From a bacterium (GTDB lineage: Bacteria > Cyanobacteriota > Vampirovibrionia > Gastranaerophilales > Gastranaerophilaceae): a stretch of 64,000 nt of DNA. The DNA lies in assembly GCA_017559905.1 (NCBI GenBank), contig JAFYQF010000002.1:62001-126000 (forward strand), given 5' to 3'. The position numbers and the translations under genes are program-made. Numbering within the stretch: the first letter of the stretch is position 1; each line of letters starts with the position of its first letter. Positions 33,353 through 35,370 of this stretch are shown here, in pieces. The notes under the pieces were generated by a model that made no database searches, was not told the origin of the DNA, and was given only the letters and a program-made list of their open reading frames with translations.

Positions 33353-34063
33353 ATGCTTTTAGGAGTAAATATTGATCACGTTGCAACATTAAGAAACGCA
33401 AGAGGCGGAATAGAACCTAGCGTAATTGATGCAGCAAGAATTGCAGAAGAAAACGGCGCTACATCTATTACAACTCACTTAAGAGAAGATAGAAGACACA
33501 TTAAAGATGAAGATGTTTACACGCTTACTAAAACATTAAAAACAAAACTAAACCTCGAAATGGCGATGGCAGAAGATATTCAAAAAATAGCTTTGGAAAT
33601 TAAACCTCACTCAATTTGCCTTGTTCCAGAAAAAAGACAAGAAATCACAACAGAAGGCGGACTAGATGTTGCTGGACAACTTGACAAAGTAACCAAATTC
33701 ATTAAACCTTTATTAGATGCAGGCATCATTGTTAGTTTGTTTATTGACCCAGATTCAGAACAAGTAAAAGCCTCTGCAAAAACTGGTGCTCAATATATCG
33801 AAATGCACACTGGAACATATTCTGAAACTTTTGGCACAGAAAAAGAAGAAGCTGAATTCCTAAAACTTAAAAACGCTGCAAAATTAGCACAATCACTAGG
33901 CTTAACTGTAAACGCTGGTCACGGCTTAAATTACGAAAACGTTCACAGAATGCACGAAATTGAAGGTTTGTACGAACTAAATATAGGTCACTCAATTATC
34001 TCACGTGCAGTTTTCACTGGATTACCAGAAGCTGTTAGCAAGATGAAAGAACTTATTAAATAA
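33353..34063 (+). CDS. pdxJ: Pyridoxine 5'-phosphate synthase
   Basis: PdxJ condenses 3-amino-2-oxopropyl phosphate with deoxyxylulose 5-phosphate to pyridoxine 5'-phosphate (DXP-dependent B6 route). The 236-residue TIM barrel starts 'LLGVNIDHVATLRNARGG' and has 'ITTHLREDRRHI', 'EMAMAED', 'IEMHTGTYS' and 'VNAGHGLNYENV'. AAAGAGG gives the ribosome site. Confidence 0.97.
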   Translation: MLLGVNIDHVATLRNARGGIEPSVIDAARIAEENGATSITTHLREDRRHIKDEDVYTLTKTLKTKLNLEMAMAEDIQKIALEIKPHSICLVPEKRQEITTEGGLDVAGQLDKVTKFIKPLLDAGIIVSLFIDPDSEQVKASAKTGAQYIEMHTGTYSETFGTEKEEAEFLKLKNAAKLAQSLGLTVNAGHGLNYENVHRMHEIEGLYELNIGHSIISRAVFTGLPEAVSKMKELIK

Positions 34064-34070
34064 AGGAAAA

Positions 34071-34388
34071 ATGATGAAATCTAAAGAAGAAATTATAGAA
34101 GAAATGCAACAAGTTGCAGAGCAAATGCGCCTTGATGATATAGAAGAAAATCCAGACGTAATCAACGATTACTTTGACTGTGCATGTTGCGGACAATACA
34201 AATGTCTTGCAGGTTCTATCCAATACGGGCAATACAGACTTTGCAACGATTGTGTGCTTATTGCAGAAACCAGTTTTGCACTAAACAAAATAAAAGATAT
34301 TCAAGAATTAATCGACGCAATGGAAGACAATCGCCTTGAAGGTATGTGCGAATTCTTGAAACAAGAAGAACAAAGAAAACTTAATTAA
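34071..34388 (+). CDS. Small zinc-ribbon-like protein
   Basis: The 105-residue product has a CxxC pair in 'FDCACCGQYKC' and another in 'RLCNDC', spaced as in a zinc ribbon, with acidic helices on both sides. It follows pdxJ by 7 bases with an AAAGGA ribosome site. Function unknown. Confidence 0.7.
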   Translation: MMKSKEEIIEEMQQVAEQMRLDDIEENPDVINDYFDCACCGQYKCLAGSIQYGQYRLCNDCVLIAETSFALNKIKDIQELIDAMEDNRLEGMCEFLKQEEQRKLN

Positions 34389-34396
34389 AATCATTT

Positions 34397-34482
34397 AACT
34401 AACACTTAAGCGTGTCTTTTTTACACTTAACTAATACTTAAGTGTAACTTGCGTTTTCAAAAAACTAATACTAAAGTATTAC
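34397..34482. repeat. Three operator-like 20-bp palindromic repeats
   Basis: AACTAACACTTAAGCGTGTC (34397-34416), AACTAATACTTAAGTGTAAC (34429-34448) and AACTAATACTAAAGTATTAC (34463-34482) are direct repeats, each an imperfect palindrome, with starts 32 and 34 bases apart (about three helix turns). TTACACTTA/TAAGTGTAA and TAATACT/AGTATTA are perfect arms. They end 7 bases before a TTTACA that could be a -35 box. They look like a cooperative repressor or activator site; the factor is unknown. Confidence 0.65.
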
Positions 34483-34488
34483 ATTTTC

Positions 34489-34516
34489 TTTACATAATAG
34501 TTATAAATAATAATAT
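34489..34516 (+). promoter_or_regulatory. Candidate promoter of the structured RNA upstream of rex
   Basis: TTTACA (34489-34494), a 16-base spacer and TAATAT (34511-34516) could start transcription near 34523, directly after the repeat array. The -10 match is poor, so this is tentative. Confidence 0.35.
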
Positions 34517-34736
34517 CTTGGGTATATATATTATATCAAAACAAGATATCCAATGTGCTTAATAAAAAGTTTTGTTTTCATTAACCCCGACATTAGCTTG
34601 CTTTGGCAGAAGTGCAACCATTAATATTTGCAGTGCGGTTGCTGCCACGACCGCGCTCCTTAATATATCAGACTAACCAAAGATATTTTTTGCTAATCAT
34701 ATAAGGACTGAGCGGAGTGACTTCCGCTCTTTTTAT
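34512..34736 (+). ncRNA. Candidate structured RNA or rex leader ending in a terminator
   Basis: This non-coding stretch has strong pairing potential. AATATCTTGG (34512-34521) can close with CCAAAGATATT (34677-34687), one bulge; ATATATTA (34526-34533) with TAATATAT (34661-34668); AGTGCGGT (34632-34639) with ACCGCGCT (34650-34657). Competing folds exist: ATATCTTG with CAAGATAT (34542-34549), and GCAACC/GGCA (34614, 34605) with GGTTGCTGCC (34637-34646). It ends in a terminator hairpin. Size and rod shape recall 6S RNA, while alternative folds recall a riboswitch; neither is shown. SRP RNA, tmRNA and RNase P motifs are absent. Confidence 0.4.
34710..34736 (+). terminator. Terminator just before rex
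   Basis: GAGCGGA (34710-34716) pairs with TCCGCTC (34723-34729) and TTTTTATTTTA follows. It ends the candidate RNA 20 bases before the rex start. Confidence 0.8.
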
Positions 34737-34743
34737 TTTAGTG

Positions 34744-34749
34744 TATAAT
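34744..34749 (+). promoter_or_regulatory. rex -10 box, six bases before ATG
   Basis: A perfect TATAAT ends 6 bases before the rex ATG (34756), predicting transcription from the start codon itself. No good -35 is seen; the preceding terminator occupies that place. Confidence 0.5.
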
Positions 34750-34755
34750 GAAGAT

Positions 34756-35370
34756 ATGGATAAGAAGATTTCAGAGAAAGTAATCAACCGTTTAACGCTT
34801 TATCATTACATTTTAGACGATTACGAAAAAAAAGACATTGAATTCATTGCGAGTAATCAGATGGCGTCACTATTGAATATTGACGATTCACAAGTTCGCA
34901 AAGATATTAGTATCCTAAACAATTCTGGCAAAGGTCGAGTTGGTTACATCGTAAAAGAACTAAAAAAATCAATTGAAACGACATTGGGTTTTGCAAAAAC
35001 CAAGAATGCCTTTATTATCGGAGCAGGAAACTTGGGAATGGCGCTTGCAAAATACGACAACTTTACCAATTACGGTTTAAATATCGTTGCGTTATTTGAC
35101 AACGACGACAAAAAAATTGGCAAAACGATTAATAACAAACTTGTATTAGACATTGAAAAACTACCAAACTTAAGCAAAAAATCAGGAGTCGACATTGCAA
35201 TTCTGACAGTCCCACGAGAATACGCACAAATTATGGCTGATTTCCTAGTACAAGCTAACATCAAGTATATTTGGAATTTCACACCTGCAGTATTATCAGT
35301 TCCAAAAGACGTACAAGTTTGGAACGAAAATTTGATGGGTAATTTCCTACAATTTACATACAATATTTAG
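34756..35370 (+). CDS. rex: Redox-sensing transcriptional repressor Rex
   Basis: Rex is a dimeric repressor that senses the NADH/NAD ratio and controls fermentation and respiration genes. The 204-residue product has an N-terminal winged helix ('LTLYHYILDDY', 'SQVRKDISILNNSGKGRVGY') and a Rossmann domain with 'IIGAGNLGMALAKY' and 'FDNDDKKIGK'. I choose the ATG at 34756, where the family begins. A Rex site (TTGTGAA-N4-TTCACAA) is not visible upstream. Confidence 0.93.
   Translation: MDKKISEKVINRLTLYHYILDDYEKKDIEFIASNQMASLLNIDDSQVRKDISILNNSGKGRVGYIVKELKKSIETTLGFAKTKNAFIIGAGNLGMALAKYDNFTNYGLNIVALFDNDDKKIGKTINNKLVLDIEKLPNLSKKSGVDIAILTVPREYAQIMADFLVQANIKYIWNFTPAVLSVPKDVQVWNENLMGNFLQFTYNI

Follow-up and report, generated by a model that had tools for sequence, protein, structure and literature searches.

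A candidate small-RNA gene of Gastranaerophilales that may derive from a type IV prepilin gene

We propose that the region between p105 and rex in the window (the whole 64,000-nucleotide stretch of DNA analysed here) harbours a stand-alone small-RNA gene of ~200 nt, at about 34535-34736, that is specific to its genus, was exapted from a prepilin gene and acts in trans. We put the probability of this reading at about 0.6. The species of the window belongs to the order Gastranaerophilales, whose members are gut-dwelling relatives of cyanobacteria, and its genus is labelled g1 in our comparison with other genera. By computation, the region is conserved in g1, one of its hairpins covaries, its promoter is shared with pilin genes, sister genera carry pilin genes at the same place, and the neighbouring rex gene is independent of it. 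The transcription of the gene and the pilin ancestry of its RNA are deduced from these patterns. The account was settled after trying several regions, alignments and hypotheses.

Genomic context and conservation

In the window, pdxJ (33353-34063) is followed by p105 (to 34388), the RNA element and rex (34756-35370, forward strand). The latter matches the redox-sensing transcriptional repressor model NF003994 of NCBIfam with 224 bits, above the cut-off, and is a neighbour that lies outside the RNA gene. The RNA region was found in 13 of the 14 g1 genomes, the window's own counted, and the order pdxJ-p105-element-rex is identical in all 13. The single g1 genome that does not have it is 78% complete, and neither rex nor p105 turned up there in our searches. 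As for p105 (34071-34388), it codes for a conserved protein of 105 residues with a CACCGQYKC motif, is a neighbour of pdxJ in many of the family's genera, and has no match in Pfam or NCBIfam.

In the g1 alignment, mean pairwise identity is 84% in the conserved core (34580-34665, forward strand), and the promoter block has a mean identity of 87%. The fourfold-degenerate sites of pdxJ, p105 and rex show 44% identity, as does the spacer upstream. Promoter and core are thus far above the identity of the fourfold sites, and both must therefore be under selection.

The 241-nt region folds better than its shuffles (z -2.8, with 1 of 200 as good), and so does its opposite strand (z -3.7), which means that energy alone cannot fix the strand. 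The strand is fixed instead by the promoter, the terminator and the U-G pairs of hairpin B, which, read on the opposite strand, would turn into A-C mismatches. The consensus fold of the core alignment has a z-score of -5.0 against column-shuffled alignments, with single-core values ranging from -0.6 to -4.5 across species.

Promoter and terminator

The promoter boxes, like the pair tables used below, were taken from one g1 alignment and two sub-alignments of it. Upstream of the core lies a palindromic, operator-like box, TAATACTAAAGTATTA (34466-34481, forward strand), which is conserved in all 13 g1 members and common to prepilin genes. It is also present upstream of the prepilin genes of g2, g11, g14 and g40, and in other members of g1 (L024-L028) a paralogous prepilin gene has it upstream as well. 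Positions 34398-34481 hold three spaced copies of a AACTAATACTTAAGTGT-like motif, the last of which is the palindrome itself. The next box, TTTACATAATAGTTATAAA (34489-34507, forward strand), is near-invariant, and its 3' half, GTTATA (34500-34505), is the likely -35 element. The whole box looks like HLR1, the cyanobacterial element to which RpaB binds (PMC6331805), a likeness that goes no further than resemblance. Promoter alignment places the putative -10 element, TATATA, at 34523-34528 (forward strand) within GGGTATATAT. The spacing of exactly 17 nt between the two elements recurs at unrelated promoters of the family (L019, L021, L022 and L029) and at prepilin promoters; the recurrent layout in the family is GTTATA (or GTTTAA), 17 nt, and a TATAAT-like hexamer after GGG. 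The exact promoter pattern occurs at this locus only within its own genome.

The same alignment predicts a transcript start at about 34535. The initial annotation had let the element begin at 34512 with a long-range closing helix, whose 5' strand (34512-34521) would, given a start near 34535, sit upstream in the promoter spacer and probably not be transcribed. Transcription might also, though less probably, begin near 34512, and the closing helix is unconserved even so. At the other end, the proposed terminator is real: an 8-pair stem (34710-34729) followed by the T-run TTTTTATTTT forms an intrinsic terminator (34710-34739, forward strand) that is conserved in the genus. Between them, promoter, conserved core and terminator delimit a predicted small RNA of ~200 nt (34535-34736, forward strand), which, as expected of an independent bacterial sRNA gene, would have both its own promoter and its own terminator.

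Two competing hairpins in the core

The core can adopt two hairpins. Segment 1, TGGCAGAAGTGCAACC (34604-34619, forward strand), is the 5' arm of hairpin A, and its pairing positions are invariant in 13 species. Segment 2, GGTTGCTGCCA (34637-34647, forward strand), is the 3' arm of hairpin A and shares bases with both the 5' arm and the loop of hairpin B (34633-34656, forward strand; arms 34633-34640 and 34649-34656, loop GCTGCCAC). All eight pairs of hairpin B are present in 13 of 13 species, with 100% of the cells of the pair table paired. One pair takes four forms, being A-U in nine species, C-G in two, G-C in one and G-U in one, and U-G variants occur at other pairs. The covariation score of hairpin B is higher than those of 500 of 500 shuffles and of all slid controls. 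As both-sided changes affect one base pair only, this covariation lends support to the hairpin and is not a proof.

Hairpin A can also form in all 13 species. Its ten shared pairs never vary, so that it shows no covariation, and such invariance is uninformative about structure. At an eleventh position, column 66 of the alignment can pair either with column 47, in hairpin A, or with column 81, in hairpin B, and it covaries with 81; this indicates that, where the two conflict, evolution retained hairpin B. Hairpin B is favoured by about 5-13 kcal/mol in all 13 species and is predicted to dominate. Hairpin A is predicted to occur chiefly in transcripts truncated ahead of segment 3 (34649-34656), where its pairs have a mean probability of 0.42-0.55. 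The GCAACC sequence in segment 1 is not needed for hairpin B. A pairing between segments 1 and 3 was also considered and rejected, as it is not retained across species.

The four helices named in the initial annotation are all present in the window sequence, but only the inner competing pair is conserved. The alternative pairings 34632-34639 with 34650-34657 and 34605-34619 with 34637-34646 are kept in 13 of 13 g1 members, and the alignment of relatives in search of compensatory changes yielded them at one pair of hairpin B. The outer pair, based on 34512-34521, does not hold. The closing helix 34512-34521/34677-34687 is intact in the window's species only and retains 0-5 of its 10 pairs in the 12 relatives, and its alternative, 34513-34520/34542-34549, retains 3-6 of 8 pairs there.

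Prepilin genes at this locus in sister genera

In g11, g14, g40 and one of three g2 genomes, a prepilin gene (Pfam N_methyl) follows p105 behind the same promoter. The g1 element resembles these type IV prepilin genes (PF07963 / TIGR02532) in its locus, its promoter and its collinear 5' coding end, the core matching the prepilin coding region AFTLAEV...VVAA. Unlike them, it has neither an open frame nor a ribosome-binding site, and its core is structured. Judged against the prepilin genes that occupy the syntenic position, homology appears strong for g2 and g11, with at least 992 of 1000 shuffles beaten in direct alignments of the core for 10 of 12 pairs. For g40 the resemblance is mixed and only partial, and there is none to the g14 pilins. 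The likeness was first spotted by eye in the g1 alignment and then tested, and the shuffle counts are thus not free of selection.

When a covariance model of the element was run against 383 genomes of the order, it gave 13 strong matches, all in g1, and most of the 17 weak ones correspond to the N-terminal (5') coding sequence of prepilins. An exact-pattern scan of GTDB-species contigs returned, besides g1, one Bacteroidetes and one Chlorobiota MAG, which we take as chance matches. Of note, the 5' end of the prepilin genes of L181 and L193 (L014) carries a duplicated N-terminal motif (FALAEGAAHA...AFTLAEV; FTLAEGATHVANFSNPGKNAFTLAEV), which looks like a short segment inserted or copied in frame.

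The genus g7 (L064, L129-L133, L135-L137 and L139-L141) has a different, strongly conserved RNA of ~100 nt between p105 and rex. It lies behind the same promoter, ends in a terminator hairpin carrying CAACC and is present in two tandem copies in L141. It has no match in Rfam, and its own model matches more than 20 genomes, nearly all of g7. The genus g22 has the promoter and a pilin-3'UTR-like remnant without an open reading frame (alignment score 166, with 2 of 1000 shuffles as high). Most g7 RNA copies, the g22 remnant and the 3'UTR of the g11 pilin also contain GCAACC.

In a tree of pdxJ, p105 and rex, the sRNA-bearing g7 groups with the pilin-bearing g14 with a support of 0.99, and g1 groups with the pilin-bearing g11 with a low support of 0.53. 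The simplest history would be a pilin-to-RNA conversion that took place at least twice. This is not proven: given the low support for g1 and g11, its direction rests on parsimony. It is tempting to go further and suppose that in this family one pilin locus was repeatedly converted into a small-RNA gene (in g1, in g7 and perhaps in g22), with the pilin promoter kept each time, and that the RNAs regulate the pilins still present or the old pilin regulon. We regard this as possible, if doubtful.

How the RNA might act

As the prepilin gene turned into an RNA gene, the promoter, the operator boxes, part of the 5' coding sequence and the terminator would have been retained, and the remaining pilin reading frame would have been lost. 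The predicted transcript would end up folded as hairpin B, with the invariant strand upstream of it, UGGCAG-AAGU-GCAACCAUU, left free, and hairpin A could form only before segment 3 is made. Most likely, the RNA would then act in trans by base pairing through this free strand, under the former pilin regulation. The strand AGUGCAACCAUU is nearly invariant across g1 and not needed for hairpin B, and base pairing through it is the mechanism that we prefer, with low confidence; what we say of the mode of action and of the targets is guesswork. A search for Hfq gave no match, with a model that also misses a cyanobacterial control.

The main alternative to base pairing is that the RNA mimics pilin mRNA, its pilin-like CTTTGGCAGAAG...GTTGCTGCC being kept to titrate a binder of the 5' coding end of prepilin mRNAs. 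The best-conserved blocks of the core are indeed those that match prepilin coding sequence, and the promoter is common to pilin genes. However, hairpins A and B could equally explain the conservation, and we know of no protein or RNA that binds the 5' coding end of prepilin mRNAs. Furthermore, elsewhere in the window's own genome the 18-base string of segment 1 is matched only twice, each time with 3 mismatches. Such a sponge thus seems rather unlikely to us.

Is the element simply a decaying pilin pseudogene without function? Its collinear resemblance to the 5' end of pilin genes would fit, as would the remnant found in g22. Nevertheless, a promoter and a core far more conserved than fourfold-degenerate sites, together with the compensatory changes in hairpin B, are not what a pseudogene would be expected to show, and we consider this explanation unlikely.

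Independence from rex

The initial annotation had also envisaged a leader that decides read-through into rex. In g1 the element is directly upstream of rex and ends in a terminator, as such a leader would. However, rex has its own -10 element, TATAAT (34744-34749, forward strand), beyond the terminator and 6 nt before the ATG, and this spacing of 6-7 nt is conserved in g1. The rex transcript is thus probably leaderless and would start after the terminator. In one g1 member, L006, ~70 bp more separate the terminator from rex, and in some g7 species the comparable RNA is set apart from rex by other sequence, from several hundred up to nearly 1,000 bases long. In addition, the terminator stem pairs only with itself in the consensus fold and has no competing partner there. 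A cis-acting leader, or a riboswitch-like attenuator, is quite improbable on these grounds.

Other readings of the element

A short coding gene, for a pilin-like or regulatory peptide, is less probable still. Short open frames do exist in the region, one of them running through the TTG-GCA-GAA codons (LAE). However, no reading frame is conserved among g1 species: the distances between conserved blocks differ by 1-4 nt, which shifts the frame, loop length varies as well, and the frame is broken in different ways in different species. Nor is a ribosome-binding site seen ahead of the core. The RNA would therefore appear both conserved and non-coding, in keeping with an independent bacterial sRNA gene.

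The 6S-like shape noted at first, for which a similar length (near 180-200 nt for a stand-alone gene) and a closing helix intact in one species would speak, is hardly credible as a sign of 6S RNA (RF00013), because no relative keeps that helix, and with it the closing stem that would enclose a central bubble, the element scores with no Rfam model, and the genome's 6S-like match is located elsewhere, on another contig, at G000:C14:109058-109231. The Rfam covariance search of the window, at both gathering and permissive levels, returned chance-level matches only, none of them to 6S, and the loci of the sister genera gave nothing above chance. As for the 6S-like match, it reaches 33.7 of 46.4 bits, below the Rfam cut-off, and is found in most of g1 as well; matches in other families of the order exceed the cut-off.

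Discussion

The stand-alone RNA with competing pairings and a terminator, the other option of the initial annotation, is upheld as a prediction by its conservation, the covariation in one hairpin, and the conserved promoter and terminator. Among known systems, 3'UTR-derived sRNAs such as CpxQ (PMC4817254) are comparable in that the RNA comes from a locus which, in the same genome or in relatives, also has a protein gene behind that promoter. The g1 element differs in that its frame is gone and that the part kept resembles the 5' coding end. The pilE-associated noncoding RNA of Neisseria gonorrhoeae, which is reported to act in cis in the antigenic variation of the expressed pilE (PMC3547852), is likewise a small RNA at a pilin locus; in contrast, no pilin gene remains at the g1 locus. 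Our literature search found no described small RNA of the order Gastranaerophilales, and Rfam has no matching family. A search by title for pseudogene-derived sRNAs gave nothing relevant.

Bacterial small RNAs are common, and their origins are seldom visible. Here, the protein gene still lies behind the same promoter in sister genera, which could allow each step from pilin gene to RNA gene to be traced.
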